Assembly: GCF_025961575.1 (NCBI RefSeq)
Contig: NZ_JAOQNX010000019.1
Span: 1 to 64,000 of the forward strand
Length of the DNA stretch: 64,000 nucleotides
Reading direction: 5' to 3'
Source of the DNA: Rhodoblastus acidophilus
Lineage (GTDB): Bacteria > Pseudomonadota > Alphaproteobacteria > Rhizobiales > Beijerinckiaceae
Position numbers and translations under genes: made by a program. How positions within the stretch are numbered: the first letter of the stretch is position 1; each line of letters begins with the position of its first letter. Below the pieces are notes generated by a model. The model did no database searches, was not told the origin of the DNA, and saw nothing but the letters and a program-made list of their open reading frames with translations. This document shows positions 11,784 through 58,833 of this stretch, piece after piece.

Positions 11784-12281
11784 CTCGAAAAACTCCGCGC
11801 GCGCGGTCTGCCCTGCCTTTTCTAAAGCGGCCTTTTACATTCAATCGTTTTACCTTTTCCTTGCGCAATCATCGTTGGAATGCTGGAGGAGGACGCCACA
11901 CCATTGCAGCCGCCACTACCGTCTGCTTTTCACCCTATCCCTCCCGTTCGGCCAGCGACCGCAATCCGCCGTTTGCCGACACGGAGCCCGCAGAACTTCT
12001 GTGTTTTTTTTGGCGCCTCCTCGAACGCCCGCGAGAGTGGATTTTTGGGAAATTTCTATTTCTGGTTGAATTTTCGCCGCGCAAAATCGCGCAAAACAGC
12101 TTCATTTGTGAAACAAACGCGCGTTTTTTGATGAAAAGCGCGTGGTTTTCGTAGCTGCAGCTTGTGGGTTGTGGCGGCGGCGGTGAAGCGTGGACATAGT
12201 TTAAAGCTTCGGCTTTTTCGGCCGAATGACGCGGACTCGTTGTTTTTCCTGGACTTGTCACGCAGGCCTGGGCGCCGCCGA

Positions 12282-12297
12282 TGTTTCACGTGAAAAC
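12282..12297. other. Putative parS (ParB-binding) site 1
   Basis: TGTTTCACGTGAAAAC matches the first 14 of 16 bases of the bacterial parS consensus TGTTTCACGTGAAACA and keeps the full TTTCACGTGAAA palindrome. A 22-base block around it (12280-12301) recurs perfectly, in inverted orientation, at 58364-58385. parS sites load ParB/Spo0J and cluster near the replication origin. ParB binding here is inferred. Confidence 0.75.
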
Positions 12298-12423
12298 AAA
12301 ACGTGAACATTCTTTCGACACATTGACCGATTTGGCGCGTTTCACGGTTTTCACTTTTGGAAAAAACGCGCGCCAAACGGCGCTGCGCGCAAAATCTTTG
12401 GCGTTTCGCCTTCGGCTCGGCGT

Positions 12424-12465
12424 GGATGGACAATCCCCGGGTCAAGCCCGGGGACGGTCATGACG
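12424..12465. repeat. Intergenic palindrome, family C
   Basis: The arms CCCCGGG (12435-12441) and CCCGGGG (12447-12453) surround TCAAG, with GGATGGACAAT before and TCATGACG after. The layout matches the element at 42921-42949. It lies just downstream of the glycerophosphodiesterase gene. Confidence 0.65.
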
Positions 12466-12491
12466 CTGGTGTTTGAACGGGCGCGGGCGCC

Positions 12492-13244
12492 TTACGGGAT
12501 AAAACCCTCAAAAACGATCTGGTCGGCGCGCCTCAAAACCTCCTTTGCCTGTTCGGCGCTGCGCACCGTCCAGCTCATCACCGGCATTTTGGCGCAGGCG
12601 CGGGCGAGTTCGCAGGTCGGGTTGGGCAGGTCGGAACTGCGCCAGGACAAAAAGTCCGGCCGGGTTTCGCGGGCGTGGACGAAGCGGGCGAGGCGGTCCT
12701 TTTCCGCCGCCGTCAGATTTTCGAAATCGCCGTCGTCGTAATCGGCCTGCGCCACAATGCCGAGCGGCCATGGCGCATCTTTTTGCGCCCGCAAGACGGC
12801 GATCAGCGCCGGGTCAAAACTTTTGAGCGCGACGGGGCCGCGATGGTCCGCGAGCGCGGCGGCCATGGCGTGGGCCAGCGAGACGTCGCCGTCAAAATCG
12901 CTCTTGAGTTCGAGGATCAGCGGGCAGTCGGCGCCCTCGCGCAAAAACTCCGCGAGGGTCGGGATGCGCTCGCCGCCGCGCAGCCGCAAGGCCTGGGCCT
13001 GCGCGGTGTCCAGGTCGCGGAAAAACCCGGTTTCGCGGGTGAGGCGGTCGAGTTCGTCGTCATGGAAAACAAAAACGCCGCCGTCGCGCGACAGCCGGAC
13101 ATCGGCCTCGACGGCAAAACCCCGGGCCATGGCGGCGCGCAGGGCAAAAGTCGTGTTCTCCGGTCTTTGGGCGTCGTGCAGCCCGCGATGGGCGATCGGC
13201 CGCGCCGTCAGCCAGCCCGGGGCGTTGCGTTCAGTTGTGCGCAT
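12492..13244 (-). CDS. ugpQ: Glycerophosphodiester phosphodiesterase
   Basis: Hydrolyses glycerophosphodiesters to glycerol-3-phosphate and an alcohol. The TIM-barrel active-site motifs are present: AHRG (about 18-21) with PENT ten residues later, the metal ligands in EADVRLSRDG, and the FHDDELDRLT stretch. LELKSDF adds the third carboxylate site. At 250 residues with no signal peptide it is a cytoplasmic UgpQ-type enzyme. It lies 42 bases after the RidA-like gene on the same strand, a probable two-gene operon. Confidence 0.92.
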   Translation of the reverse strand: MRTTERNAPGWLTARPIAHRGLHDAQRPENTTFALRAAMARGFAVEADVRLSRDGGVFVFHDDELDRLTRETGFFRDLDTAQAQALRLRGGERIPTLAEFLREGADCPLILELKSDFDGDVSLAHAMAAALADHRGPVALKSFDPALIAVLRAQKDAPWPLGIVAQADYDDGDFENLTAAEKDRLARFVHARETRPDFLSWRSSDLPNPTCELARACAKMPVMSWTVRSAEQAKEVLRRADQIVFEGFIP

Positions 13245-13286
13245 ATTCTTGGCCGGAAACCGCGCACACTTTCCGGGAATATGCGC

Positions 13287-13772
13287 TCACGGCAAAATCT
13301 CGAAAATCGCCTCGACCTCGACGCAGGCGCCGAGCGGCAATTGCGCCACGCCGATGGTGGAGCGGGCGTGCTGGCCCTTTTCGCCGAGCGCGCCGCCGAT
13401 CAGGTCGGAGGCCCCGTTCATCACCTGGGCGAGCCGGGTGTATTCCTCGGCGCCGCGAATAAAGCCGCCGAGACGCACGCAATGGCCGATGCGGTCGAGG
13501 TCTTCGATGGCGGCGCGGACCTGCGCCAGCACGTTGACCGCGCAGAGCGCCGCCGCCTGTTTGGCGACCGTCTCCTCGACCTCGGCGCCGACGCGGCCGA
13601 TATGAGCGTCGCTCAGGGCGCCGTCCGCGCCGAACGGCAATTGCCCGGAGACGAATAGCAGCGCGCCGCTGCGCACGGTGGGGACATAATTCGCCACGGG
13701 CGCCGCCGGGGTCGGCAGGACGAATCCGAGATTGGCGAGGCGGCGTTCGACTTCGGAAGCGATCTGGCCCAT
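13287..13772 (-). CDS. RidA/YjgF-family protein
   Basis: RidA-like proteins hydrolyse reactive enamine/imine intermediates or have related roles. The 161 residues start MGQIASEVERRLANLGFVLP and contain the YjgF core: LFVSGQLPF, CAVNVLAQVRAAIEDLD, and a C-terminal strand with the ligand-binding arginine in HARSTIGVAQLPLGACVEVE. The longer form with an N-terminal helix is the subgroup of about 155 residues (YjgH/endoribonuclease L-PSP like), not the 125-residue RidA. The ATG at 13772 has AGGAAAG upstream. An open frame further upstream is not conserved. Confidence 0.88.
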   Translation of the reverse strand: MGQIASEVERRLANLGFVLPTPAAPVANYVPTVRSGALLFVSGQLPFGADGALSDAHIGRVGAEVEETVAKQAAALCAVNVLAQVRAAIEDLDRIGHCVRLGGFIRGAEEYTRLAQVMNGASDLIGGALGEKGQHARSTIGVAQLPLGACVEVEAIFEILP

Positions 13773-13893
13773 GGGAGACTTTCCTGTGATTCCATTTGTG
13801 ATTGGACTTGAGCGTAATTTCGCCAAAGATGGACGGCAATGACTTTCGCATCCGAGCCAATACAAAGATCATGAAGCTCTCAGGGAGAAGTTT

Positions 13894-14703
13894 ATGCGTT
13901 TGACCGCCAGCCTGCTGCTGACTGTCCTTGCCTGCGGCGCGCCCGCCCTCGCCGCCGAAGCCCGAATCCCGCTCGCCAGCCATCGCGCGCTCTACGATTT
14001 GCGCCTGGGCGAGGCGACCGGCGGCAAAGCGCCCGCCAATGCCGAAGGCATGATCGCCTATCAATTCTCGTCGGATTGCGATTTCTACGCCCAATCGCTG
14101 CGCCAGGTGGTGGCCATGCAGCCGCAGGAGGGCAACCCCCAGCTCAGCGAGAGCCGCGTCAGCACCTATGAGGATGGGCGCGGCCAGGATTTCCGCTTCA
14201 CCACCAATGAATCCGGCGCGCGGGGCGAGGAGGTCGAGGGCCGCGCCCAGCGCGCCAGCGACGGCGCGCTCGCCATCGCCCTGAGTTCGCCGCGGCCGCA
14301 GAAAATCAACGCCGATTCCGCCGTGCTGTTTCCGACCCAGCATGTCGCCAAACTGATCGACGCCGCGGAAAAGGGGCAGAAAATCCTGCTGGCGCGGGTG
14401 TTCGACGGCTCCGCCGACGGGCGCAAGATTTTTGACGTCACCGCGATCATCGGCCCGGCGCGCACGACGCCCGACGCCGACAGCGCCGCCAAGGCGGAAA
14501 AGCTGCGGGGCCTGCGCCGCTGGCCGGTGTCGCTGGCCTATTTCCCCGAAGACCGCCACGACGGCGCGCCGGATTACGTGCTGAACTACGATCTCTACGA
14601 GAATGGCGTGTCGACCCATCTGCGGCTCGACTATGGCGATTATTCGCTGGTCGGCGAGCTCACGCGGATCGAATTCCCCACGCCGACGCGCTGCCGCAAG
14701 TAA
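13894..14703 (+). CDS. eipB: EipB-type periplasmic envelope-integrity protein (DUF1849)
   Basis: EipB is a conserved alphaproteobacterial periplasmic protein needed for envelope stability in Brucella. A signal peptide (MRLTASLLLTVLACGAPALA-A) is clear. The mature protein shows the DUF1849 opening SHRALYDLRLGEATGG, followed by YQFSSDCDFY and a final PTRCRK; these two cysteines correspond to the known disulfide. The conserved stretch YFPEDRHDGAPDYVLNYDLYENG-like segment is also present. The 269 residues are normal. The gene converges on the GGDEF-EAL gene with only 6 bases between them. Confidence 0.9.
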   Translation: MRLTASLLLTVLACGAPALAAEARIPLASHRALYDLRLGEATGGKAPANAEGMIAYQFSSDCDFYAQSLRQVVAMQPQEGNPQLSESRVSTYEDGRGQDFRFTTNESGARGEEVEGRAQRASDGALAIALSSPRPQKINADSAVLFPTQHVAKLIDAAEKGQKILLARVFDGSADGRKIFDVTAIIGPARTTPDADSAAKAEKLRGLRRWPVSLAYFPEDRHDGAPDYVLNYDLYENGVSTHLRLDYGDYSLVGELTRIEFPTPTRCRK

Positions 14704-14709
14704 AAGACG

Positions 14710-16653
14710 TCACGCCGACGCGGCCCAGGCGCGGCCGCAGCCGGCGTCGGCGATGAAGGCCGCGACCTCGTCCTGCGGGATCGGGCGGCTGAACAGATAG
14801 CCCTGCACGACATTGCAGCCGAACTTGCGCAGCAGGTCGAATTGCTCGGAGGTTTCGACGCCTTCGGTCACGCAATGCAGGTTGAGGCTGCCGATCAGGG
14901 CGATCATGCTCTTGATGATGTCGCGGGCGACGCCATTGCCCTGCATTTCCTGGACGAAACTGCGGTCGATCTTGATCTTGTCGAGCGGCAGGCGGTGCAC
15001 ATAGGCGAGGCTTGAATAGCCGGTGCCGAAATCGTCGAGCGAGATTTTGACGCCGAGCCGCTTCAGCGTGGTCAGCGCCGCCTGGGCGCGCTCGAAATCG
15101 GTGAGCAGCGAGGTTTCGGTGACTTCGATGTCGATCCGCGCGGGGGCGACGCCGCTGGTCTCGATGATGGCGACGATCTGGCTGAGGGCGATCGGCGACA
15201 GCAGGTCGCGCACCGACAGGTTGAGGCTCACCCCGACCGTCTCGGGCCAGTTTTTCGCGGCCTTCAGCGCCTTGCGCAGCACGGTGCGGGTCAGGGCGTG
15301 GATGGTTTCGCTGCGCTCGGCCACGGGAACGAACTGGCTCGGCGGCACCGCGCCCAGTTCTGGCGACATCCAGCGCGCCAGCGCCTCGAAGGAGACGATG
15401 GACTGGTCGGCGGCGTCGAACAGCGGCTGGAATTCGAGCGTGATCTCCTCTTCGAGATCGGCGCGGCGCAGGCCCTGCTCGATGCGCGCCTTCAGCCGCA
15501 TCTTGGTCTCGTGCTCGGAGGTGAACAGCACGGCCTCGCCGCGATGATGCTGCTTGCCGTGGTAGAGGGCGAAATCGGCGCGCTCGTAGAGCTGCTCGGC
15601 GTCCGCCGCATCCTGGGGGAAGCGCGCGAAGCCGATCGAGCAGGACATGCGGGCCTCAGCGCCGGCGATCCGCACCGGCGCCTTGAACGCCGCGCAGATG
15701 CGGGCGCCGAAGGCGAGGATTTCGGTCTGCGTCATGCGGGCGTTGACGACGACGCCGAATTCGTCGCCGCCCAGGCGCGCCACCGAGACGCTATCGGACT
15801 CGAACCGGCGCAGCCGCATGGCGCATTCGCACAGGACCTTGTCGCCCACGGCGTGGCCGTAGAGATCGTTGACCGGCTTGAAGCCGTCGAGATCGACAAT
15901 GCCCATGAACACCTGCTCGCCCCCGGCGATTTCTCGGGACATCTGGGCGAAGAAGGCGCGGCGGTTGGCGAGGCCGGTCAGGCTGTCGGTGTTGGCGATC
16001 CGCCTATTGTCCTCGGCGAATTGCGCGGCGCAGGCCCGGGCCGCCACCAGGTCGTCGAAATCGCGTGACGACCCATTCACCGACAGGAACAGCGCCAGCA
16101 CGACGACAAAGATGTTCACGCCGGCCAGGATGGCGCTGGCGTCGCCGCCGGTGATCAGCAGCCAGGCGAAACCCGGCAGGGTCAGGCCGCCGACCAGCAG
16201 CGCCGCCTTGGGCAATTGCGACAGGGCGAAAATCGTGAACATGCCGGTGAGCGCGACCGAATAGATCAGCGCCTCCCCCTGCCCCGGCCCGGCGTGGATG
16301 TAGAGCGCCATGGCCCAGGCGATGTAGAGAAAGGCCAGCGGCGCGGCGGCCAACTTGACACGGTACAGTATGCGGCCGGCCTCGGCCTCGACGATCGGCT
16401 GTCGGATCAGGCGACGCCAGGCGATGACGAGGCACAGGCCGAGACAAGCGAGCGCCAGCGGCGCGGAGACGGTGAGCGCCAGCGGCGCGGAAGAGAGGAA
16501 AATCGCGGCAAGCGTCAAGACGTTGCCGGCGATCGCCAGCGCGATCAGCGGCATTTGTCGAACCAGGGCGGCGAGGCGGGCGCAATCGCGTTCCGCGCAC
16601 GGCGAAGACGAGCCGCAACCGGCGCCGGCATGCAGGGAAAACACCAACGGCAT
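14710..16653 (-). CDS. GGDEF-EAL cyclic-di-GMP protein with membrane N-terminus
   Basis: Second predicted cyclic-di-GMP turnover protein of the window. Hydrophobic helices fill about residues 33-200. The GGDEF domain (about 218-385) has LGGDEFGVV at about 296. The EAL domain (about 395-640) has the EALARW variant at about 423, LNLSVRDLL, IEVTETSLL, LDDFGTGYSSL and EGVETSEQ. The catalytic residues appear intact, and the architecture is the common MHYT-free membrane type. It differs from the 6.6 kb protein in sequence, so it is not a recent duplicate. No adjacent gene explains its signal. Confidence 0.92.
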   Translation of the reverse strand: MPLVFSLHAGAGCGSSSPCAERDCARLAALVRQMPLIALAIAGNVLTLAAIFLSSAPLALTVSAPLALACLGLCLVIAWRRLIRQPIVEAEAGRILYRVKLAAAPLAFLYIAWAMALYIHAGPGQGEALIYSVALTGMFTIFALSQLPKAALLVGGLTLPGFAWLLITGGDASAILAGVNIFVVVLALFLSVNGSSRDFDDLVAARACAAQFAEDNRRIANTDSLTGLANRRAFFAQMSREIAGGEQVFMGIVDLDGFKPVNDLYGHAVGDKVLCECAMRLRRFESDSVSVARLGGDEFGVVVNARMTQTEILAFGARICAAFKAPVRIAGAEARMSCSIGFARFPQDAADAEQLYERADFALYHGKQHHRGEAVLFTSEHETKMRLKARIEQGLRRADLEEEITLEFQPLFDAADQSIVSFEALARWMSPELGAVPPSQFVPVAERSETIHALTRTVLRKALKAAKNWPETVGVSLNLSVRDLLSPIALSQIVAIIETSGVAPARIDIEVTETSLLTDFERAQAALTTLKRLGVKISLDDFGTGYSSLAYVHRLPLDKIKIDRSFVQEMQGNGVARDIIKSMIALIGSLNLHCVTEGVETSEQFDLLRKFGCNVVQGYLFSRPIPQDEVAAFIADAGCGRAWAASA

Positions 16654-16771
16654 GAAAGCCCCAATCCCTCGCCAAGCGCATTCCGCCGACGATCGTTAAA
16701 ATTTTTAGCCAAAACTCGTTAAGTACAAGTTACGCTAGGTAATCATGGGCGACCACAGCTTGGCCGAAACA

Positions 16772-16799
16772 ATAAAACCTCCCGCCGGGGGCGGGAGGT
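16772..16799 (-). terminator. Rho-independent terminator of the carboxylase gene
   Basis: Read on the minus strand, ACCTCCCGC and GCGGGAGGT form a strong hairpin followed by TTTTATT. It lies about 35 bases after the stop of the gene at 16835-18370. Confidence 0.9.
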
Positions 16800-16834
16800 C
16801 TGCTGTTCCTGCGCGCTTGGAGCCGCGTCTTGGC

Positions 16835-18370
<1,536 letters not shown>

Positions 18371-18542
18371 GAGGCCATTCCGGTCTTGGCGACATCCTGC
18401 CGCAGAAGGAGAAAATCGAGCGGGGGTTTAGCACGGGTCGCCGGGCGCCGGAACAGGCAAGATGACGCTTGGATGAAAGCCTTTTGGCTAATGCCGCGCC
18501 CTTTTTCAGGCTTTGGCGAGAAATCCGCGCTAGCCTGGCGCG

Positions 18543-19874
18543 ATGACGCCTTCCTTGACCGATCGAAGCCCACCGCCCGCCTCGCCATCGTCCGCTCCGG
18601 CCGCAAGCCTTTGGCGCCTGCCTGCGGCTTTGGCGGTCGGCGCGCTGCTGATCGGCCTGGGGCTGCGCTTTGCGGCGCGCGCCCATGTCACCTCCGACGC
18701 CGCCGCCTATCTCTCCTGGTACGCCTTCGCGCGCGAGCATGGGTTCGCCGGCCTGCGCGAGGCCTTCACCGATTACGCGCCATTCTACAGCTATCTCCTG
18801 CTGATCGCGGCCCAATTCGACGCCCTCGCGCAGCCGCTCACCCTGATCAAGAGCATTTCGGCGGTGTTCGAACTCGGCTGCGCGGCGGTTCTGGCGCGGA
18901 TCGTCTGGGACGCGACGGGCAAGCCGATGCGGGCGGCGGCCACCTTTTGCGCCGCTTGGCTGGCTCCCACCGTGCTCGTCAACGGCGCGGTGATCGGCCA
19001 GATCGATTCGCTCTGGACTTTCTTCATCCTCGCCGCGATCGCGCTGTTCCTGCGCGGACGCAACGGGACGCCGCTGTTCGCGGTGGCGGTTGCGGCCAAG
19101 CTGCAAGGCGTCTTTCTCGGGCCATTCGTCTTCGGCCTGATGCTGCGCCGGCGGGTGCATTGGGGCTGGCTGGCCGCGCTCCCGGCCGCATACCTGCTGC
19201 TGGCCCTGCCCGTCCTGGTCGCCGGACGGCCGCTCGCCTCGGTGTTTTCAGTCTATCGGGGACAGGCCGGGCTGTTCGACCTGCTCACCATGAACGCCGC
19301 AAACCTCTGGCTATTCGCCAGCAACACCCCCTACGGGCTTGGAGTCGCCATCGGGCTGGCGCTGGCCGCCCTGGCGGGACTGGCCCTATCGATCTTCATC
19401 GCCCGCGCGGACCGCGACGCGCCGGAATTCCTGCTGCTCGCCGCCTGCCTGTCGCTGCTGCTCATGCCCTTTCTGCTGCCGAAGATGCATGACCGTTATT
19501 TCTACGCCTTCGAACTGGGGTCGATCGCGCTGGCCGGGCTCAACCCGCGCTATCTCGCGGTCGCGGTCATGGCGCAGGCCAATGGCGTGCTGGCGCTGCT
19601 CGGCTTCGTCGCCGGCGACCATGTGATGGGCCTGTTGCCAGCGGCGCTCTGCAATCTGCTGCTGATCGGCTTTTTGGCAGCCGATCTGACGCCGGGCGCG
19701 CGCGGTTTCCGCTGGGTTTGGTGGACCTGGCTCGCCTATGCGGGCGCGCTCGCCGGGCTGTTCGCCGCGGTCATGCTGGCGCCGCCGGGTTGGACCGTGT
19801 CGCCGACGCTCATGGCCACGAGCATCCTGACGGTGGTCACGGCGCTGATCTTGCTGCGGGAATCGCGAGCCTAG
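18543..19874 (+). CDS. Integral-membrane GT-C type glycosyltransferase
   Basis: Probably transfers a sugar from a polyprenyl-phosphate donor on the periplasmic side of the inner membrane. About 10-11 hydrophobic helices fill the 443 residues. The first loop (about 50-75) has HVTSDAAAYLSWY with the acidic residue typical of GT-C enzymes. GQIDSLWTFFILAAIALFL and PKMHDRYFYAFELGSIAL match bacterial mannosyltransferase-like proteins. The acceptor and sugar are unknown. No other cell-surface gene is next to it. Confidence 0.78.
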   Translation: MTPSLTDRSPPPASPSSAPAASLWRLPAALAVGALLIGLGLRFAARAHVTSDAAAYLSWYAFAREHGFAGLREAFTDYAPFYSYLLLIAAQFDALAQPLTLIKSISAVFELGCAAVLARIVWDATGKPMRAAATFCAAWLAPTVLVNGAVIGQIDSLWTFFILAAIALFLRGRNGTPLFAVAVAAKLQGVFLGPFVFGLMLRRRVHWGWLAALPAAYLLLALPVLVAGRPLASVFSVYRGQAGLFDLLTMNAANLWLFASNTPYGLGVAIGLALAALAGLALSIFIARADRDAPEFLLLAACLSLLLMPFLLPKMHDRYFYAFELGSIALAGLNPRYLAVAVMAQANGVLALLGFVAGDHVMGLLPAALCNLLLIGFLAADLTPGARGFRWVWWTWLAYAGALAGLFAAVMLAPPGWTVSPTLMATSILTVVTALILLRESRA

Positions 19875-19958
19875 CCGGGAACAGGAACGCATTGCGCCCC
19901 TAAAACGATCCTCTCAGGGGTCAGCTCGCGCGCAACGTGATCCAGTCCCCTCGCCTGC

Positions 19959-21017
19959 TCACGCCCGCGCGGTCTGCGCCAGCAGATCGAAGGCCAGCAA
20001 CGTGAACGCCCGCTTGTCCAAATTGAACACGGCGAGGTCCCGCGCTTCGCGTTCGAGTTGCTCCCAGGCCTGGGCATAGGGCGCGACGGCGCGCGGCCCA
20101 AGATCGCGTTTTTGGCGCAGACCGGCGCTGAGCCAGCCGAAACAGGCGGCGAGCAGGGCGTCGAGCGCCGTCTCGTCGCCGGCGGCGCTGTCGGCGATGC
20201 CGTGGATCAAAGGCCAGTTGATCTGCGGAAGCATGGCGAGCGCCCGGTTGACCTGGGCGTCGAATTTCGCGTCCACGGCGGACAACAGCCGCAAAGCTTC
20301 GCGCGGCGCGCCTTCGGCTCGGGCGCAGGCGGCGTCAAGCGCGGAGTCCTCGGGGTTGAGCCCGGCCGCAGCCAAAGCCGCGCGAGCAGCGGCCCGCAGA
20401 TCGGCGTCGGCGAGCGGTTGCAGCATCACCCTACGGCAGCGCGAGCGAATCGTCGGCAGGATGCGGCCGGGCTGGTGGGCGACCAGCAGGAACAGGCTGC
20501 GCGGCGGCGGCTCCTCGATCATCTTGAGCAGCGCATTGGCGCTGGCGGCGTTGAGGTCGTCGGCGGAATCGACGATCGCCATGCGCCAGCCGCCCCCGCC
20601 CGCCGCCTGCTCGAACAGATGCAGCATTTTGCGAACATCCTCGACGGCGATGCGGGTGAAGAACTTCTTGGTCTTCTCGTTGAACCCACGCCGCAGCAGC
20701 GCGAGGTCGCCAAACGCCATCGACGAGATTTTGCGCGCGACCGGATGCGCAGGATCGACCGAAAGGTCTTGGGCGGACAAAACCTCGGGGGTTGTGGGGT
20801 CGGGATAGGCGGCGAGGAAGCGCGCCATGCGCCAGGCCAGCGTCGCCTTGCCAATGCCCAGGGGGCCGCCGAGAATGAACGCCTGCGGCATCCGGTTGGC
20901 GCGAAAGGCTTCGAGGAAATCGGCTTCGACCTTGCGATGCCCGAACAAAACGTGGGTGTCGCGCGGGTGCGGCGCCGGCTCGAACCGATCGCTTTCCGGC
21001 GCCGAATCCCCCTTCAC
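19959..21017 (-). CDS. holB: DNA polymerase III subunit delta'
   Basis: Part of the clamp loader that opens the beta clamp on DNA. The AAA+ domain starts with HVLFGHRKVEADFLEAF, has a Walker A-like GGPLGIGKATLAWRMA, the VDSADDLNAASANALLKMIE sensor/Walker B region, and the SRCRR arginine region of delta' proteins. Unlike tau/gamma there is no zinc-binding Cys cluster. The 352 residues are normal. The ATG overlaps the tmk stop (ATGA), so tmk-holB is one operon, a usual alphaproteobacterial arrangement. Confidence 0.93.
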   Translation of the reverse strand: MKGDSAPESDRFEPAPHPRDTHVLFGHRKVEADFLEAFRANRMPQAFILGGPLGIGKATLAWRMARFLAAYPDPTTPEVLSAQDLSVDPAHPVARKISSMAFGDLALLRRGFNEKTKKFFTRIAVEDVRKMLHLFEQAAGGGGWRMAIVDSADDLNAASANALLKMIEEPPPRSLFLLVAHQPGRILPTIRSRCRRVMLQPLADADLRAAARAALAAAGLNPEDSALDAACARAEGAPREALRLLSAVDAKFDAQVNRALAMLPQINWPLIHGIADSAAGDETALDALLAACFGWLSAGLRQKRDLGPRAVAPYAQAWEQLEREARDLAVFNLDKRAFTLLAFDLLAQTARA

Positions 21018-21703: not shown

Positions 21704-21775
21704 AGCTGAATTTCCGAAAGCGGGGTTTCCCCGCCTTTGGGATCATGCTCTAAACCGATCAATCTCCATAACGCG

Positions 21776-21802
21776 AAAAAACCGCCCGGGGTAGTCGGGC
21801 GG
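21776..21802 (-). terminator. Terminator-like hairpin upstream of tmk
   Basis: Minus-strand reading gives CCGCCCG, a short loop, CGGGCGG and TTTTTT. No minus-strand gene lies upstream of it, because the photolyase is on the plus strand. It would therefore act on a tmk leader transcript or be an attenuator. Confidence 0.55.
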
Positions 21803-21866
21803 GTGAGACCTTTCCGCCCGCAGCAGGTTAATGCCGCACAACCTTCCGTTCTCGCGCGATTTTTTC

Positions 21867-23285: not shown

Positions 23286-23468
23286 CGTCCGTTAACCGTA
23301 GAACGCGATTGGCTTTTCTGGCCTTGGCTTGATCTGTGCCTTGCGCGCCACAGATCGCCGTTTTCATGCGCGGCCGCCCCCGCCCGGCCATTGTTTGGCT
23401 CAAATTGCTGCTACATAAGCTATGCGCCGTCGTCCGCCCTTTTGGACGTTGCGGCGGAAACGGTGTGC

Positions 23469-43859: not shown

Positions 43860-43872
43860 GAAACCATCCTCC

Positions 43873-44883: not shown

Positions 44884-44904
44884 TCGAAAACTCCGGATTC
44901 CGGC

Positions 44905-45756: not shown

Positions 45757-45771
45757 GGACGGCTCCTGAAT

Positions 45772-46041: not shown

Positions 46042-46042
46042 G

Positions 46043-50396: not shown

Positions 50397-50403
50397 CGAG
50401 GCC

Positions 50404-53400
50404 TCAATTGAACTTTTTCGCGCGGGCGATCAGTTTTTCGAGATTTTTCTCGCCGGCGTCCCAGGGCGTGCCGGGATGCACGCAGCCCGCGGCGCAACGC
50501 TCGGCGCTCTTGACGATATCGGCGTATTTCGCCCCCTTCGGGTTGGTCACGACCGCGAGCTTCGCGTCGTTATAGGCGAACACGCCGGGCGCCTGATCCA
50601 TGCATTCGCCGCAGGCGGTGCATTCGGGCGTATCGACATAGACGGGCTCGTAGTCCGGCAGGCCCTTGGCGGCAGGCGCGGCGGCGGGGGCCTCCGCGAC
50701 CGGAGCCGCCGCCGGAGCCGGAGCGGGCGCAGGGGCCGGAGCCGGCGCCGCCAAAGCGGGGACCGCCGCGGGCGCAGGAACCGCAGGAGCCGGCGCCGCG
50801 GGAGCCGGAGCCGAGGCGCCGAGGCTGACGCCCAAAGCGGCGCTGATGCTGGCGTTGAGGCGCTTGGTCAGGTCGTTGCGGACGCGATCGGCCACAGCGG
50901 CCTCGTCGAACGGCGGCTTGCCCACGACATCCTTGAGCTGGCGCCAGAACTGCAACCGCTCTTCGCTCGCCTTGACCAGCTCCTGCGCGACGATCAGGCG
51001 CATCAGACGGCCCTTGGGGTCGGTCGCCCAGATATAGGGGAACAGACCTTCGCGCTCGTCGGCGGGCAGCGAGATCAGCTCGGCCAGCGGAACCATGGAA
51101 TCGTTCCAGGTTTCCGGCGGCGCCTTGCGGAAATGCTTGGCGAAGCGCGCTTCCGTCGCCGCGAAATCGGCGAAGGTCACATGGGTGTGCATTTTGCCCT
51201 TGGCGCCGGACTCGTCGATATATTTCAGCACATAGGACGGCCAGTCGGAATCGACGGACGGGTTGCCCTTGAGGCTGACGGCGGAGGAGAAGGTCTCGCC
51301 CGCGTCGGGATCGTAGCGGAACAGCGGATAGGCGCGGCTTTCCACCGCCAGCTTGCTCTGCGCGATGCTGCGATCGTCGCCCACGCCATGTTCGGGCGGG
51401 CACACGGCATAGATGTTGAACAGGGCCGGACGGCGCGAGTTCAAACCGTCGATATAGCCTTCGAGCAGATGGGTGACATGGGCGATCGTGCTCTGCAGCA
51501 CGAAGGAGGAGCGGTGCGCCATGGCGATCAAGCTGATCTCCTTGCGGATTTCGCTCTTGCCATGCTGGGCCGCGCCATAGGGCGCCATATCCGACACCTG
51601 GCCGATGAAGCCCGACGTACAGGCTTGACCGCCGGTGTTGGAATAGACCTGCGTGTCGACGACCAGGACCTTGATCGGCTTGCCGGCCATCATCATGCGC
51701 GACAGGTTTTGGAAGCCGATGTCATACATGGCGCCGTCGCCGCCCAGGCTGACGACCGGCGGGCACAAATGCCATTCCTCGTCGGTGAACTGCTCGTAAT
51801 TGAAGCGGTTGAAGAAGTCGCGGTCGCGCTCTTCGACATACTGGCCTTTGAGCTCCAGTTCCGCCTGACGAACGGCCTTGAACCCTTCGGCCATCTTGGC
51901 CATGTGGCCCTCGAACAGGCCCATGGCGACCGACGGCGAGTCCTGGAACAGGTGCGAGGTCCAGGGGAAGGGATAGGGGTGGTAGGGATAGGTCGAGCCC
52001 CACACCGAGGTGCAGCCGGTGGAATTGACCATGCCCATCGAGGCGCGGCCGCGCTGGGTCGGCCCCTCGACATAGCGCCAGCGCAAATCCTTCAAGGCTT
52101 CCAGCAGTTTCGCGGCGCGCTTGACCCAGGCCGGGTCGAGCGGACGCGACGGCTTGCCGTCATTCAGCTTGTCGGCGAGCGTCGACAGGGTGAGGTCATG
52201 CGGCGCGGCCGAGTCCACCGCGCGCACCACGGCGCCGGTGTCCGACAAATCCACAGCCTGCGCCAATTCCAGCCGCATATGCTGTTCGAGATCGGTGATC
52301 AGCTTGTCCAGCTTGCCGATGAACGCCTTCACGCGGGGCTGCATCAGCGCTTCGACAGTGGAGGTGAACAGGTGGATCGCCGTCTTTTCGCCGCAGCCCA
52401 GGCAGGCGCCATCGCCGCAGGTCATGGCGTTGTAGTTGGCCTTGTCGAGCAGCAGGGTTTCGAGCGCGCCGACCTTTTCGTCGAGGTTTTCGATGCGGCT
52501 GAATTCCGCGCCGGTCGAGGGCAAGTCGAGCCAGAAATTCCAGTCGCGACGCAGGCTTTCGACGGACTCCTCGGTCTGGGTCTCCATCTTCAACGCGCCG
52601 TCGCCGCAGACGTCGACGCAGAGGCCGCAGGCCTTACAGGTCAGCGGATTGATGGTGATCGAGAACAGGCCGCCGGTCCCCGGCGCCTTCTTCTCGCGCT
52701 GGCGCCAATAGAGCGTCGGCGCGGCGAAATCGAACGAGCCGAGTTCGACCTTGAGCAGTTCGAATTCAGCCTCGATCGCGGCGCGCTCCTCCAGCGGAGC
52801 CTCGTCCAACACCTGGTCGAGCGCCTTGTCGATCAGCGGACGCACCGCGACATTGCCATTCGGGCCGATCAGGCCGCGCAGCTTGCGCTCGGCGGCGCGC
52901 GCCGAGCGGCGCAGATATTTGGTCGGCGTGCCCGAGCGCTCGACGCGGTCAAGCGCGGTGGCGAACACTTCGCTGACGCTGTTGACCAGGCCGGGAATCG
53001 CGCTGTCCGGACAGACCGTATAGCACTTGGCGCAGGCCGAACATTTGGAGGCGTCCCAGACCGGATGCTCGAAGCGAATGCCGGTCATGTCGCGGAAAAT
53101 GCCCGAGGACGCCGGAATCAGCGACGCGCCGATGAAGGGGTCGAGCAGATTGTCGCTGCCCTTGCCGGTGGCGTAGAAATGGCCGGTCTGCTCCCAGAAA
53201 CGGTGCATGTCGGCGACCGGAGCCAAGCTGCTGTCGCCTGCGGGGCAGCTCTTCAGCATGATCGGCAGATTGCCGCCCTTGGCCGCAATGGCGGGGACCG
53301 CGCCCACGGGCTTGTGGGTGATCTCGTGGATTTCGGTATAGCCGCGCTTCACCACGGTGAGGTTGTTGGCCACCACGCGCGCGCCCTTGGAGCCGAACTT

Positions 53401-55443
53401 GGCCTCAAGCTGCCTTTCAATCGCGGCGAACAGCGTCTCTTCGCTGAGGCCCGCGTTCTCCTGCACGCTCGACGCGTGGAAGAACGCGCCCTGGAAGGCG
53501 TTGCCCTGCATGCGCAGCTGCAATTCGGCGCTGCCGGCCTCTTCGCGGGCGATCTTGAAGGCGTCGAGATAGAAGACGCGCAGCTCGTTGTCGACGATCT
53601 GCTGCTGCGCCCAACGCGGGAACGAGGCCCAAGTGTCCTCGCCCAGATTGCTCTGGATGATGAACACGCCGCCCTTCTTCAGGCCGGACAGCGGGTTGGA
53701 ATGACCGAACACCGCCGGATCGGGCGACAGCACGACGTCGACATAGACATATTCGGAATTGACCCGGATCGGCTCCGGCGCCGCCGACAGATAATAAGTG
53801 GTCGGCTGGCCCTTCTTTTCCGAACCATATTTGGGATTGGCCTTGATCTCCCATCCGAGCAGTTCGAACAGGGTCATGGCGAGGTTCTTGCCGGTGGTGA
53901 TCGCGCCCCAGCCGCCGATCGAATGCATGCGGACGGTGATCGCGCCCTTCGGCATCAGATTGGGGTTCTCGCTACCGCGCACCACCATTTTCGTCGCGCT
54001 CGGATAGGCGCTCTGGAAGGTCTGCTGGTGCAGCTCGTCCTTGGGATGGCCGGGCTCGCGCGCCACATCCACCGACAGATAATAGAAGGAGCGTTTGGAG
54101 CCGGTCGGCAGCATGTTTTCGACTGCGCCGATCAGGCCCTCCGGCTGGAGGTCGCGCGACCCCAGGCCATAGCAGCCCGAATAGAGGCGCGGCATTTCAT
54201 GCGCGGCCAGCGCGGGATAACCGGGATGCGAGGGCGCGATGGAGCTGTTGGCGTCAAAGCCGTTTTCCAGCGCCTTGTGCAGCGCGGCGCGGACTTCGCG
54301 CATCAACGGCAAGTCTTCGGCCAGCGGCTGGTCGGTGCGCTCCAGCACGGCGACGCCCTTCTTGCCGCGCAGGATTTTTGACACGAGATCGCCGGGGAAC
54401 GGACGGAACATGGTGAGGTTGACCACGCCGACCTTGAGCTTGCGGGTTTCTCGCAGATAGTCGGCGACGGCCTCGGCCTGCACCACCATGCTGCCCATGC
54501 CGAAGATAATGTAGTCGGCGTCGTCGGTCTTGTAGCCGCTCACCCGCCCATATTTGCGGCCGGTCAGCTCCTCGAACTCCGCCATGCAGCGGTCGGCGAG
54601 CGGCTGCACCTCGTCGAAGAAATAAGGACGCTGCGCGGCGACCGCCTGCATATAGGCGTCCTGATTCTGCACCGAGCCCGAGGCCATGGGCACGTCCACG
54701 TCCCAGATGGCGGGCACGCGACGGCGCTTCGGGCCATAGAGCATGGCCTGCGCCTGAGTCGGCGTGTCGATGAAATCGTCGGGCTTACCGAGATATTCGG
54801 CGACGAGTTCGCGCTCAGGCAGGGTCACCGATTCGATCAGATGGGTGGTCAAAAAGCCGTCCTGACCGACGATGGCCGGGGTCAGCGACAGTTCCGCCAG
54901 CTTGCGCGCGATCAAGTTGAGATCGGCGGCTTCCGTAGCGCTCTTGGCCATCACCTGGATGAAGCCGGTGTCGTCGACGCAATGGTAATCGTCATGGCCG
55001 GCATGGACATTGAGGCTCGCCTTGGTGATGGCGCGGCAACCCATGTTCAGCACGTAGGGCAGACGCTTGCCCACGGTGGCGTAGAGGCTCTCGTGCATGA
55101 AGGCGATGCCCTGCCCCGACGAGAAATTGGTGGCGCGCAGGCCGGTCATTGCCATACCGGCGGTCACCGCGGCGGCGGCGTGCTCGCTCTCCGGCTCGAC
55201 GAAGATCAGGGGACGGTCGCTGACGTTGAGATGGCCGCTCGCGGCTTCCTCGGCCCAATATTCGCCCATTTGCGTGGAGGGCGTGATCGGATAGGCGCCG
55301 GCGGCGTCGGAGGCTTCGCGCTCGACATGGATGATCGCGGTGTTTCCATCCACGGCGTCACGGACACCCGGGTATTTCACCGCCTTCACCTCGGGAGCGG
55401 GGCTGGCGCCGGTCAGAGAGTCCATAATCTTCTTCAGCATCAT
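50404..55443 (-). CDS. nifJ: Pyruvate:ferredoxin (flavodoxin) oxidoreductase with fused C-terminal ferredoxin
   Basis: Converts pyruvate and CoA to acetyl-CoA, CO2 and reduced ferredoxin, possibly reversibly. In 1679 residues (the family norm is about 1170-1230): domain I from AYPITPSTQMGEYWAEEAAS, domain III near MHSIGGWGAITTGKNLA, two cluster motifs at C801/804/807/811 and C936/939/942/946, the proximal cluster pair C1014/C1017 with C1144 in NSTGCTSVWG and C1275, and the TPP motif GDG at about 1236. About 100 extra residues lie between C1017 and C1144. An Ala/Pro linker (about 1540-1592) leads to a ferredoxin domain with C1608, C1611, C1614, C1650 and C1654. The ATG at 55443 has GAGG seven bases upstream. 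It is the first gene of the rnf operon. Confidence 0.93.
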   Translation of the reverse strand: MMLKKIMDSLTGASPAPEVKAVKYPGVRDAVDGNTAIIHVEREASDAAGAYPITPSTQMGEYWAEEAASGHLNVSDRPLIFVEPESEHAAAAVTAGMAMTGLRATNFSSGQGIAFMHESLYATVGKRLPYVLNMGCRAITKASLNVHAGHDDYHCVDDTGFIQVMAKSATEAADLNLIARKLAELSLTPAIVGQDGFLTTHLIESVTLPERELVAEYLGKPDDFIDTPTQAQAMLYGPKRRRVPAIWDVDVPMASGSVQNQDAYMQAVAAQRPYFFDEVQPLADRCMAEFEELTGRKYGRVSGYKTDDADYIIFGMGSMVVQAEAVADYLRETRKLKVGVVNLTMFRPFPGDLVSKILRGKKGVAVLERTDQPLAEDLPLMREVRAALHKALENGFDANSSIAPSHPGYPALAAHEMPRLYSGCYGLGSRDLQPEGLIGAVENMLPTGSKRSFYYLSVDVAREPGHPKDELHQQTFQSAYPSATKMVVRGSENPNLMPKGAITVRMHSIGGWGAITTGKNLAMTLFELLGWEIKANPKYGSEKKGQPTTYYLSAAPEPIRVNSEYVYVDVVLSPDPAVFGHSNPLSGLKKGGVFIIQSNLGEDTWASFPRWAQQQIVDNELRVFYLDAFKIAREEAGSAELQLRMQGNAFQGAFFHASSVQENAGLSEETLFAAIERQLEAKFGSKGARVVANNLTVVKRGYTEIHEITHKPVGAVPAIAAKGGNLPIMLKSCPAGDSSLAPVADMHRFWEQTGHFYATGKGSDNLLDPFIGASLIPASSGIFRDMTGIRFEHPVWDASKCSACAKCYTVCPDSAIPGLVNSVSEVFATALDRVERSGTPTKYLRRSARAAERKLRGLIGPNGNVAVRPLIDKALDQVLDEAPLEERAAIEAEFELLKVELGSFDFAAPTLYWRQREKKAPGTGGLFSITINPLTCKACGLCVDVCGDGALKMETQTEESVESLRRDWNFWLDLPSTGAEFSRIENLDEKVGALETLLLDKANYNAMTCGDGACLGCGEKTAIHLFTSTVEALMQPRVKAFIGKLDKLITDLEQHMRLELAQAVDLSDTGAVVRAVDSAAPHDLTLSTLADKLNDGKPSRPLDPAWVKRAAKLLEALKDLRWRYVEGPTQRGRASMGMVNSTGCTSVWGSTYPYHPYPFPWTSHLFQDSPSVAMGLFEGHMAKMAEGFKAVRQAELELKGQYVEERDRDFFNRFNYEQFTDEEWHLCPPVVSLGGDGAMYDIGFQNLSRMMMAGKPIKVLVVDTQVYSNTGGQACTSGFIGQVSDMAPYGAAQHGKSEIRKEISLIAMAHRSSFVLQSTIAHVTHLLEGYIDGLNSRRPALFNIYAVCPPEHGVGDDRSIAQSKLAVESRAYPLFRYDPDAGETFSSAVSLKGNPSVDSDWPSYVLKYIDESGAKGKMHTHVTFADFAATEARFAKHFRKAPPETWNDSMVPLAELISLPADEREGLFPYIWATDPKGRLMRLIVAQELVKASEERLQFWRQLKDVVGKPPFDEAAVADRVRNDLTKRLNASISAALGVSLGASAPAPAAPAPAVPAPAAVPALAAPAPAPAPAPAPAAAPVAEAPAAAPAAKGLPDYEPVYVDTPECTACGECMDQAPGVFAYNDAKLAVVTNPKGAKYADIVKSAERCAAGCVHPGTPWDAGEKNLEKLIARAKKFN

Positions 55444-56020
55444 CTCAAGTCCTCGACGCGCGCACGCCACGCGGTTGATTTTTTACTATTCACAGTTTGA
55501 CCGAATTCATCTGCGACATAAGGGCGCACTACGGAATAGGCGCAGCCCGGGCCGTCAGGACGTACCGGTAGTGAAGAGCCAAGCTTTGAGTCAAGTTCGC
55601 CGAATTGACGCCCCGGCGCCATGACGACGATCAATTTTCCGGTTAACTTTAGCTTTATCGATGGGGCTGCCGCACTCGGGTCGCGAACGAGGGCGGCAAG
55701 CGCGCGCTTGCCGCCTCAAGGCCCGTTGCATGAGCCGAAGCAAGTCCGCCGCGCTTCAGCAACATTACGCATCGGAAGTCAGAAAGCACAAGCGCGGCCG
55801 TTTGCGGACCATCCTGGGAAAGGCGAAGCTAAAGCGCGGATTTGGCTGAGCAAACAAACCCGATCGATCCTTGCGCTTGACCTCAGCCATATTACTCATT
55901 GTTTATGCTGTGCTCTCCGTATCAGTACGCAAAAACAGCAAAATGAGCGTTTCACTTGGCGACCACATGGTGTAAGCTTCGAACGTTCACGATATTGTTA
56001 CACGCAGTCAGGAGCGCCGA
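55444..56020. other. Intergenic region with the nifJ-rnf promoter
   Basis: About 580 bases between the divergent nifJ operon and the 81-residue gene. The nifJ promoter should lie here. A minus-strand TTGACT is visible near 55593, but no good -10 or TTG-N8-CAA box accompanies it. A 39-codon basic frame (55730-55849, starting MSRSKSAALQQHY) has no clear ribosome site. Nothing else is recognised. Confidence 0.4.
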
Positions 56021-56266
56021 ATGTCCACCAATGTCGTCAGGCTGAACGGCGAAAGCTTTCCTGGGCCGGAGCCCGTCGAGGACGTGATCGACACGCTGAC
56101 CCGCTGGCTCGAGAACGCCAAGGCCGGACGTCTGCGCCAGGCTGCGCTGGTGGGCGTCGAGGCGGACGGGACCACCGTGCTCGCCTGGTCCGGCGGCCAT
56201 CGCGACCTCGTCGGCTCCCTCGACTATGCGAAATATTGCATGCTGCGGGACTGGGACAACCACTGA
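56021..56266 (+). CDS. Small protein of unknown function (81 aa)
   Basis: I do not recognise it. The start MSTNVVRLNGESFPGPEPVE has a good AGGAG eight bases upstream. The sequence looks soluble and folded, with a helix (VIDTLTRWLENAKAGRLRQA) followed by a strand-like ALVGVEADGTTVLAWSG and a C-terminal YAKYCMLRDW containing one cysteine. There is no signal peptide or membrane segment. Small proteins of this type, beginning with a VVRLNG/VVSL motif, are frequent in alphaproteobacteria and unstudied. It is convergent with nnrS. Confidence 0.65.
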   Translation: MSTNVVRLNGESFPGPEPVEDVIDTLTRWLENAKAGRLRQAALVGVEADGTTVLAWSGGHRDLVGSLDYAKYCMLRDWDNH

Positions 56267-56327
56267 CCGCAGGCCGCGCCTCTCGCGAACGCAAGCCCGG
56301 ACATCCAAGGGATCTCCGGGCAAAATT

Positions 56328-57509
56328 TTATAAGCGCGGCCGCACCAGCGCGCTGGCGTAAGCCGCGACAAAGCCGCCAAACGCCGCGAGCCACGCAAAA
56401 GCCGCGACATGCAGCAGGACGAAGGCGTGTTCCGGCGCCAACGCCGCCGCGATCCGCGCCAAAACCGCCAGCAGCACCGCCCCGTAGATCGCCTGGGTCG
56501 CCCGCCCCGCATGCAGCGGCCGCCCCGTATGCCCCAGACTGGCGCGCGTCATGATCGCCAGCGTCATGCCGCCGATCGCCCCCACGCCCCAGGCGTGCAG
56601 CCCCGCGCTGAGCGGAATCGCGCTGGTCCAAGCGGCCAGCCCGTTCAGCACAAACCCCACGGGCACAAACACAAAGGCGACGTGCAGGATGGCGACCAGC
56701 GCCTCCGCCCCCGTGCGCTCGCCCGCCCAGCGCGCCAGACGCCCGAAATTCAGCAGGCCGGCGACGATCATCGCCACCCCGACCAGCCGATGATCAGGCG
56801 CAACCACCCACCCAGCAAGCGCCGGCACCGAAACGCCCAGACACACCGCATCAAAGCGCGAAAAGGTTTTGGGCAGCCGCCCCGCCCCCAACCGCCCAAC
56901 AAAAGTGTGGGTAAAACTCGGGATCACGCGCCCGCCGATCAGCATCACCAGGGCGATCAGCGCGGCGACGCCGAACCGGCGGCCATAGTTGGCGCTCCCC
57001 AAAAAATGCGCCTCGACATGGAAAGCGACATTCGCCGCCGCCAGCAGCCCGACAAACACCAGCACCTTCAGATTCTTGGTGTTGCCGCTGGCGACGATCT
57101 CGCGCCCGATCACGGCGCAGACGGTCAACAAAAACGCGCAGTCGACCAAAGCGGCGGCCAGCCACCCAATCGCCCCCGACAGCAGCAGCGCGGCCCGCCC
57201 AGCACACCACAACAGCGCCAACAAAGCGAGCGGCCGGCCCTGGATCGGCAGCCGCCCGGTCCAGTTGGGCACGGCGGTGAGCAAAAACCCGGTGACGACG
57301 GCGGCGCCATAGCCAAAAACGGTTTCATGGGCGTGCCAATCCATCGGCGGCATAGCCGTGGTCAGGGTCAGCTCGCCGAAATATTGCGGCAGCCAAAGCA
57401 TCACGGCCACCGCGGCCCAAAAGGCGCCGGCGAGGAAAAAGGGGCGGAACCCCATGCTGAAGAGGGCGGGCCCCTCGTAACGACGGCGCTTCGGCGCGGA
57501 TTCGGACAT
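56328..57509 (-). CDS. nnrS: NnrS family haem-copper membrane protein
   Basis: NnrS relieves nitric-oxide stress in denitrifiers; it is a 12-helix haem protein. The conserved PPMDWHAHETVFGYGAAVVT motif (about residue 55-75), further histidines in SFTHTFVGRLG and HAWGVGAIGGMTLAIMTRAS, and LGHTGRPL are all recognisable. I start it at MSESAPKRRR (393 residues), since upstream in-frame codons cover the regulator's promoter and gene. The NnrR-type box at 57568-57581 is about 65 bases upstream, a good activating distance. It is divergent from the Crp/Fnr gene. Confidence 0.93.
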   Translation of the reverse strand: MSESAPKRRRYEGPALFSMGFRPFFLAGAFWAAVAVMLWLPQYFGELTLTTAMPPMDWHAHETVFGYGAAVVTGFLLTAVPNWTGRLPIQGRPLALLALLWCAGRAALLLSGAIGWLAAALVDCAFLLTVCAVIGREIVASGNTKNLKVLVFVGLLAAANVAFHVEAHFLGSANYGRRFGVAALIALVMLIGGRVIPSFTHTFVGRLGAGRLPKTFSRFDAVCLGVSVPALAGWVVAPDHRLVGVAMIVAGLLNFGRLARWAGERTGAEALVAILHVAFVFVPVGFVLNGLAAWTSAIPLSAGLHAWGVGAIGGMTLAIMTRASLGHTGRPLHAGRATQAIYGAVLLAVLARIAAALAPEHAFVLLHVAAFAWLAAFGGFVAAYASALVRPRL

Positions 57510-57567
57510 GAACGGCTCCCTTGGTGATGGGCGTGTCCTCTGATAAACCCTCGCCAAAGAACCAAGT

Positions 57568-57581
57568 TTGCGCGCCGACAA
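57568..57581. promoter_or_regulatory. Possible NnrR/Dnr-type operator between nnrS and its regulator
   Basis: TTGCGCGCCGACAA is a TTG-N8-CAA box whose left half, TTGCGCG, is identical to that of the norE site at 36919-36932. For nnrS it sits at an activating distance; for the regulator it overlaps the likely start of transcription, which suggests autorepression. Confidence 0.5.
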
Positions 57582-57600
57582 ACAGACGCCGGGAGGAAGA

Positions 57601-58302
57601 ATGCCGCATCTCGACCGTTCGCTGATCGCTGAGGCCCCGGCTTTTTCCGGGCTCGACGGCGCGGCGCTCGACGACATCCTCGCCCACGCCCAGTCTTTCC
57701 GCATTCCCAAGGGTGAGGTCGCCTTCCGCCAGGGCGAGCCGGCCGAAAAATTCTTCCTGCTGCTGCACGGACGGCTGCGCGTGACCCGGCTCAACCCGCA
57801 GGGCCAGCAGATGGTGGTCCGCTTCGTCAATCCCGACGACATGTTCGGCGTCGCCATGGCGATCCAGTGCGACATCTATCCCGGCACCGCCACGGCGGCG
57901 GTCGATTCGCTCGCCCTGTCCTGGCCGAATTCGCTGTGGGCCGGCATGATCGCCCGCTATCCCGCGCTCGCCGTCAACGCCATGCGGGCGCTGGGCGCGC
58001 GCTTGCAGGATTCCCAGCAGCGCATCCTCGACCTGTCCACGCAAAAGGTGGAGCAGCGCATCGCCGGCGCGGTGCTGCAACTCGCCCACCAGGCGGGCCG
58101 CCCGTCCGAAGAGGGCGTAAAGATCGACTTCCCGCTGTCGCGCCAGGATCTTGCGGAGATGACGGCCTCGACCTTGCACACGGTGAGCCGCACGCTCAGC
58201 GCCTGGGAGGCGTTCGGCCTGGTCGAATGCGGCCGCCAGCGCCTCACAGTGCGCAATGAGGAAGGTTTGCAGGCCATCGCCAAGGGCGTCGAGAGCGAAT
58301 AA
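57601..58302 (+). CDS. Crp/Fnr-family regulator, NnrR/Dnr-like
   Basis: Transcription factor with an N-terminal cyclic-nucleotide-binding-type domain (about 10-130) and a C-terminal winged helix (about 155-225). It lacks the N-terminal Cys cluster of FNR (the only sensor-domain Cys is in IQCDIYPG), so it does not sense oxygen by an Fe-S cluster; NO sensing by haem, as in Dnr/NnrR, is inferred. The recognition helix TLHTVSRTLSAWE keeps the SR of this family but has His in place of FNR's Glu. The start MPHLDRSL at 57601 has GGGAGGA upstream. Divergent from nnrS, it is the probable regulator of the nor and nnrS genes. Confidence 0.88.
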   Translation: MPHLDRSLIAEAPAFSGLDGAALDDILAHAQSFRIPKGEVAFRQGEPAEKFFLLLHGRLRVTRLNPQGQQMVVRFVNPDDMFGVAMAIQCDIYPGTATAAVDSLALSWPNSLWAGMIARYPALAVNAMRALGARLQDSQQRILDLSTQKVEQRIAGAVLQLAHQAGRPSEEGVKIDFPLSRQDLAEMTASTLHTVSRTLSAWEAFGLVECGRQRLTVRNEEGLQAIAKGVESE

Positions 58303-58367
58303 GCGGCGAAAGTAATGTCGCAATTCCAGGTGAAAACGCGCAAAACACAAGATTTTGTTCCTGTTTT

Positions 58368-58383
58368 GTTTTCACGTGAAACA
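58368..58383. other. Putative parS (ParB-binding) site 2
   Basis: GTTTTCACGTGAAACA is the reverse complement of the site at 12282-12297 and matches 14 of 16 bases of the parS consensus. The identical block extends to 22 bases (58364-58385). Sharing it across 46 kb in AT-rich non-coding DNA is hard to explain by chance. Confidence 0.75.
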
Positions 58384-58833
58384 TCTCGGTTGCCTGAACG
58401 ACCGTGAAACCCTGTTTTAATTAGAAAAAAAGCCGCTCGAGCTAACGCGCGCCCAACCGGCGCCAAACGCCCTCACCGGCACATCTCGTACACAACCGCC
58501 CGCGTGCATGCGCAAGAATCGAACGGTTTTTGCACCGTTTCGCGCAGAAATTTCACGGAATCAGCAGCTATTTCACGGAAAAAAACGCCCCACCACAACC
58601 CAACAGGCGAGATTCGGCGCAAACATTTGTCGTCAACAGCGGTCGCCGGGGAAAGGGCCGAACTGGCCTGACCTCTGCGTGAGGCGCAACGCGACATCGG
58701 GATTTTCCGCCCTCCAGCGCGAGGAAGCGCTCAAGCGCGTTTCGCCACGGTGATCCGCGCGACCTTGCGTGTGTTTCCGGATCATTCCGGACTATTTCTT
58801 GCGTTGCCGCCAGCAGAAAACCGTTCTGCAATT

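Follow-up and report, generated by a model that had tools for sequence, protein, structure and literature searches.

The 64-kb stretch at the start of contig C19 of Rhodoblastus acidophilus (hereafter the window; genome G000, 4.91 Mb in 80 contigs) contains two inverted palindromes that resemble parS, the chromosomal ParB site, and the locus raises the question whether these mark centromere DNA close to the replication origin oriC, as the initial annotation had it, or belong to something else. Both sites are the cores of one dispersed intergenic element, of which at least 27 copies are present in G000. The sites themselves are real: the 12-mer TTTCACGTGAAA occurs without mismatch at 12284-12295 and 58370-58381 (no strand assigned), inside the 16-base frames first given for them, and 46,086 bp separate their centres, in agreement with the ∼46 kb originally noted. 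Inverted identity around them, described as a block of 22 bases, was found but comprises 23 bases (12280-12302 in the left copy). Both lie in gaps between called genes, one of 708 bp (11784-12491, AT 0.452) and one of 647 bp (58303-58949, AT 0.474), compared with an AT content of 0.352 for the whole window; the surroundings had been correctly described as AT-rich and gene-poor, and the match to the textbook parS consensus, 14 of 16 positions in both, was also correct. The deviation at the last two bases that the copies share does define a consistent subclass, but it is a one-base insertion (GTTTTCAC for GTTTCAC), present in 21 of 101 classified copies of the element from seven genomes.

In the whole genome the 12-mer was found in 16 exact copies on 13 of the 80 contigs. 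From base composition, with G+C taken as 0.645, it is expected 0.05 times in 4.91 Mb, and the reversed pattern, used as a control, gave 0 copies in G000; its abundance is therefore beyond chance. Two copies, 3.6 kb apart on contig C11, adjoin the chromosomal parB and are taken as the native parS pair; one of them lies inside a presumed rsmG gene and the other beside a presumed rho gene, with parA and parB adjacent. One of these two parB-linked sites, CTGTTTCACGTGAAACCT, matches TGTTNCACGTGAAACA at 15 of 16 positions. Nine of the 11 genomes analysed from the genus have a pair spaced 3.57-3.64 kb apart; in G153 no single contig carries such a pair, and G150 contained zero copies of the 12-mer. 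The other 14 exact copies, both window sites included, lie on 12 contigs without chromosomal parB. In G100, a congeneric relative whose 4.13-Mb chromosome is a single contig, the parS pair is located at 355,890 and 359,499, and the element occurs eight times, at 1.11, 1.55, 2.04, 2.44, 3.22, 3.46, 3.83, and 3.94 Mb. The sites are dispersed over the contigs of G000 and over the G100 chromosome, not gathered near oriC and close to parAB. The initial annotation had placed the window within ∼100 kb of oriC and had named scattered matches as the finding that would speak against this; the whole-genome search returned matches on 13 contigs with only the C11 pair on the parB contig, and the origin-proximal placement is not supported. 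On contig C1 of G100 the parS pair is flanked by stretches free of element matches, ∼0.54 Mb in one direction and ∼0.75 Mb in the other, which with eight copies is only suggestive, and G123 carries element copies 35-67 kb from its own parS pair.

The 14 copies away from parB align well beyond the palindrome and share as usual core TGTTC-NN-GTTTTG-(T)-TTTCACGTGAAAC. From 32 copies found in three genomes a profile with 59 positions was derived, and all 11 genomes of the genus were scanned with it. In G000 it returned 27 elements and three rows for the parS pair, while a further degenerate copy on contig C39 was left out of the count. Altogether 103 copies were fetched (G000, 27; G123, 30; G152, 15; G153, 11; G071, 11; G100, 8; G143, 1), and at least six weaker matches fall outside this set (three in G123, two in G153 and one in G152). 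For G033, G149 and G151 the profile matched only at the parS pair, and for G150 nowhere; a 12-mer at 3,382,999 of G100 is not an element and was excluded. Genes were called, for neighbours and orientation, with a crude codon-score script trained on open reading frames (ORFs) of the window, and outside these genes lie 100 of the 103 copies. The flanking genes are diverse. For the 26 G000 copies with both neighbours called, 10 are located between convergent and three between divergent genes, and the gene downstream faces the element in 16.

The site GTTYCACGTGAAAC is present in 144 of 149 genomes of the family, usually one to three times, and among the 143 genomes outside the genus only G049, G074 and G130 have more than four; at least 10 of their extra sites are flanked by TAGGA-type sequence and are not the element. 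A stricter core pattern picked out five of these 149 genomes, of which four belong to the genus and the fifth has a 3-mismatch match, and a broader one was found outside the genus in five of 397 genomes from the order, with one copy each. Within the sampled genomes the element is seen as a multicopy family in one genus only. G130 (L326:2085-2110) and G049 (L327) each carry the core of GTTC-N7-GTTC and palindrome once, with CATGTG at the centre in G049; both lie directly before a presumed parC, ∼45 bp upstream of it in a short gap between recO-like and parC-like genes. Extra GTTTCACGTGAAAC sites occur in these two genomes, which belong to another genus of the family, with similar surroundings in the two species (G049 L319, L320 and L321; G130 L323, L324 and L325), and most are flanked by TAGGA- or TCCTA-type sequence. 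The L320 site starts 47 bp before what is presumably a mutM-like gene, and the L319 site lies inside a presumed miaA-like gene. No paper on dispersed composite elements of this kind was found in open-access searches, judged from titles and the beginnings of abstracts.

The element is ∼375 bp long. It combines GTGAAA boxes, which resemble half-sites, with a GTTC box that directly adjoins the palindrome and ∼150 bp of phased AA/TT steps; many copies also have an IHF-like site. A GTGAAAA or GTGAAAC box at -75 to -20 was present in 27/27 copies of G000, 29/30 of G123, 14/15 of G152, 10/11 of G153, 8/11 of G071 and 0/8 of G100, compared with 1/102 overall and 0/27 in G000 at a control position. When scored against the consensus YAAN4TTGATW, 43 of the 56 copies of G000 and G123 reached at least 7/9 for the IHF-like site, vs 14.6% of shuffled segments and 7/56 control positions. 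From +110 to +260 the AA/TT steps are phased at 10.5 bp in all six genomes tested, with a spectral power at this period of 56 to 107 (shuffled sequences, mean ∼3 and highest 10; control stretch, 4 to 10); for the 27 G000 copies the mean was 99.6 and the shuffled mean 3.0. Phasing of this kind normally means intrinsically curved DNA, and the block is probably curved. Its modules suggest a scaffold on which a nucleoprotein complex could form. In the parS of plasmid P1, ParB boxes flank an IHF bend, and the element shares with it a ParB-type site, half-site-like boxes and, in many copies, a candidate IHF site; in contrast, it is chromosomal, multicopy and of the chromosomal parS type.

The extent of both window copies (-75 to +300 around the palindrome) was set by the alignment of the 14 G000 copies. 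Copy 1 occupies 11996-12370 on the reverse strand, in the gap 11784-12491 between an 814-aa ORF and a GDPD gene. On this strand it carries a GTGAAAA box at 12348-12354, a second box, GTGAAAC, at 12339-12345, and the core at 12283-12308, in which a GTTC box (12305-12308) runs into GTTTTCACGTGAAAC (12283-12297); the best IHF-like match is a weak one (6/9 positions, 12245-12257), and the phased block, predicted to be curved, spans 12036-12185 (spectral power 101.5). Copy 2 occupies 58295-58669 on the forward strand, flanked by genes for a Crp/Fnr-type regulator and a katG-like peroxidase, with the GTGAAAA box at 58330-58336, the core at 58357-58382 (GTTC box 58357-58360, running into GTTTTCACGTGAAAC at 58368-58382) and the phased block at 58480-58629 (spectral power 66.1), all on the forward strand.

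The palindrome itself could be parsed in 102 of the 103 fetched copies (L179 was left out). It agrees with TGTTNCACGTGAAACA at 14-16 of 16 positions in 100 of these and at 13 in the other two. Variation is concentrated in the left half, which reads GTTCCAC or GTTTCAC in 70 copies and TTTTCAC in another 20 and has a CAT ending in 12; the right half hardly varies. GTTCCAC and GTTTCAC are the two half-parS motifs named in PMC7022226, and GTGAAA is nearly constant in the parS sites of Caulobacter according to a figure legend of PMC5815017. Copies with the insertion, which lies before the left half, have GTGAAACAT on the right in 20 of 21 cases, compared with 12 of 80 copies without it (Fisher p 6e-12, uncorrected for common descent). 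At least one complete 8-base half-site was present in 99 of the 102 palindromes. A pattern of this kind would be left by a dimer that requires at least one strong half. With chromosomal parS the element shares the 16-bp palindrome and its variable left half, but differs in being dispersed and in embedding the palindrome in a ∼375-bp unit with GTTC box, GTGAAA boxes and phased A/T block.

The chromosomal ParB was aligned to Caulobacter ParB (6t1f). At positions 173, 179, 184, and 201, counted by hand in the alignment, it has R, T, K, and G, compared with R, T, A, and G in Caulobacter, and these four residues recurred in all eight congeneric ParBs inspected. According to PMC7383237, R173 and G201 are residues of the parS type that separate parS from Noc-binding site (NBS) recognition, and a lysine at 184 is permissive. 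The NBS of Bacillus are likewise many ParB-like palindromes over a chromosome and are read by a ParB-family protein (PMC7383237), but they are of the CCCGGG type, whereas the element is of the parS type (CACGTG); moreover, that paper confines Noc to Firmicutes, and no close ParB paralogue was found in G000. TIGR00180 matched three proteins there: besides the chromosomal ParB these were the RepB of a plasmid and a distantly related protein of 564 aa. In G123, with its 30 fetched copies, one match lay over the cut-off. A dedicated close ParB or Noc paralogue as reader was rejected for both genomes. Other genomes of the genus carry further, more distant TIGR00180 matches. On contig C37 of G000 (L342, L343) repABC plasmid genes are located together with the 564-aa ParB-domain protein, and this repABC is best covered by Bradyrhizobium plasmid records.

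Taken together, we tentatively favour, at somewhat less than an even chance, the explanation that these are dispersed ParB-nucleating architectural elements. In favour of it are the match to parS, the half-site pattern, the ParB residues, the phasing, the IHF-like scores and the conservation of position and sequence described below. At each palindrome the chromosomal ParB would nucleate, no other close ParB match having been found in G000, and the bent, curved flank would hold or stabilize a small local complex. The chromosome would then carry many secondary ParB nodes besides the segregating centromere next to parAB, which might act, e.g., as ParB reservoirs, loop anchors or SMC-loading points. 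The most economical reader would be the chromosomal ParB, a different architectural protein ranking next. Possible, but clearly less likely than not, is the wider proposal that ∼30 such elements, each combining a parS palindrome with an IHF-type bend and intrinsically curved DNA, let ParB organize the whole nucleoid from many points, so that centromere-like function would be diffuse and spread over multiple sites. ParB far from the origin has precedents in a few remote parS and in the half-parS binding of Pseudomonas aeruginosa: eight of 10 parS of B. subtilis lie in the ori domain (PMC7022226) and four of ten in P. aeruginosa lie close to oriC (PMC4368675). In P. aeruginosa ParB also binds GTTCCAC/GTTTCAC at numerous chromosomal positions away from the ori cluster (PMC7022226; see also PMC10419367); there, however, single half-sites are common in the genome, whereas here full palindromes occur in one conserved element family.

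Several observations weigh against this explanation. In G100 the centre is CATGTG in seven of the eight dispersed copies, while CACGTG is kept in its parS pair; altered centres were also found in six of 11 copies of G153 and in single copies of G123, G143 and G000 (L179). The dispersed sites may therefore answer to another protein or bind with weaker affinity. The GTTC box and the other modules are part of no parS known to us. The association between the insertion and GTGAAACAT is drawn from related copies and is uncorrected for common descent. The IHF-like matches fall at two main distances and are weak, at 6/9, in both window copies, for which also no orthologous partner was found among the fetched loci. 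In Caulobacter, fitness drops when additional clusters of strong parS are placed beyond a zone of ∼500 kb around the native one, the effect being greatest at mid-arm and small near ter; weak single sites carried on a plasmid were harmless there, and parS is described as almost exclusively near ori (PMC5815017). Many strong ectopic sites should thus be costly unless their effect is limited.

A ParB-type palindrome joined to phased, probably curved DNA and scattered over the genome is unusual, because misplaced extra centromere sites can harm a related bacterium. If ParB binds the element, the contrast to Caulobacter would be sharp. Species that keep eight to 30 near-consensus scattered sites, many of them conserved in position and set in a conserved element, would either have some mechanism to tolerate ParB at many places or use it there. 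It thereby becomes testable whether ParB can organize a chromosome from many points and whether its loading is tuned by the geometry of the flanking DNA. With another protein as reader, an unrecognized architectural system that mimics parS would be at hand.

This second explanation, in which a nucleoid-associated or regulatory non-ParB protein reads the palindrome, the element is an architectural repeat like the bacterial interspersed mosaic elements (BIMEs) of E. coli and the likeness to parS is convergent, is a serious possibility but short of probable. The altered centres of G100 speak for it, as do conserved features that far exceed a 16-bp parS (the GTTC box, the boxes of GTGAAA type and the phased block) and the position outside called genes, more often between convergent than divergent ones. 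However, the parS match extends to the known degenerate position and to the half-site logic, and no other candidate reader was identified in a search limited to ParB-family proteins. BIMEs and the related repetitive extragenic palindromic (REP) sequences are multicopy and extragenic, as the element is with its 27 copies in G000, and bind several proteins (PMC2817692), which for the present element would be a prediction. They usually exceed 100 copies, in contrast to the eight to 30 copies fetched here from each of six genomes and the single copy from a seventh, and the element differs further by its ParB-type palindrome and long phased A/T block.

It is unlikely that the element is an SOS promoter under LexA control from which an unannotated RNA is transcribed. 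GTTC-N7-GTTC is the LexA box of Alphaproteobacteria, and in some copies it overlaps the palindrome, with TTGACA upstream in some. An intact box abuts the palindrome in 36 of the 103 copies and TTGACA is located upstream in 19 (G000, 7; G123, 8; G071, 3; G153, 1). Several TGTTC-N6-TGTTC matches elsewhere in G000 lie beside presumed damage-response genes; those at L249, L253 and L267 are without the palindrome, next to what we take to be rmuC-like, phage-type repressor and UvrD/PcrA-like helicase genes, and are likely true LexA boxes. The SOS promoter is weakened because 67 of the 103 copies, both window copies included, lack an intact GTTC-N7-GTTC, and TTGACA is missing from 84. A consensus fold of the 13 class C copies computed with RNAalifold reached only -2.8 kcal/mol, with short helices, compared with a mean of -0.3 and a lowest value of -2.8 in 100 column shuffles; an RNA signal in these copies is at most faint and in part the palindrome itself. 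The window gave no Rfam match at the gathering threshold and no tRNA, and an RNA gene was rejected, as was a promoter of the next gene in view of the diverse neighbours and the downstream genes that face the element in 16 of 26 cases.

An old non-autonomous mobile repeat, similar to a miniature inverted-repeat transposable element (MITE) and now decaying, is improbable, although the element is multicopy, intergenic and patchily present across the genus. For 16 of the 27 G000 copies the neighbour gene matches the same-side neighbour of an element in another species (>45% identity and over half the length), and one further copy (L029) has an orthologous neighbour by translated comparison. In 14 orthologous pairs between G000 and G123, 20-base bins averaged 0.79-0.88 identity from -60 to +20 and 0.75-0.84 from +100 to +200, compared with 0.36-0.54 beyond +300; the upstream flank, which is often coding, also has high identity. 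The positional orthologue was the best match among the 30 G123 copies in 10 of the 14 pairs. No clear terminal inverted repeat was detected, the longest exact inverted match of the ends being 7.0 on average (maximum 9) vs 6.2 (maximum 8) in shuffled sequences. Because of the positional orthology, the identity of core and phased block above that of the downstream flank and the lack of clear terminal repeats, the element is more in keeping with long-standing DNA that has been passed on vertically under constraint than with a mobile repeat of recent date. The 581 bp around copy 1 had no match in the plasmid and phage collections, and a plasmid or phage origin was rejected.

An origin-proximal parS cluster that would put the window near oriC, for which the likeness to parS speaks, was rejected on the genome-wide count and the location of the chromosomal parB, with 14 of 16 exact sites on 12 other contigs and the element spread over the chromosome of G100, and is improbable in the extreme.

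Two ORFs of the window are further noted. The 814-aa ORF that adjoins element copy 1 is located at 9339-11783 and had no Pfam match at E 0.001. At 50404-55470 lies an ORF of 1688 aa with domains of a pyruvate:ferredoxin/flavodoxin oxidoreductase (NifJ-like).

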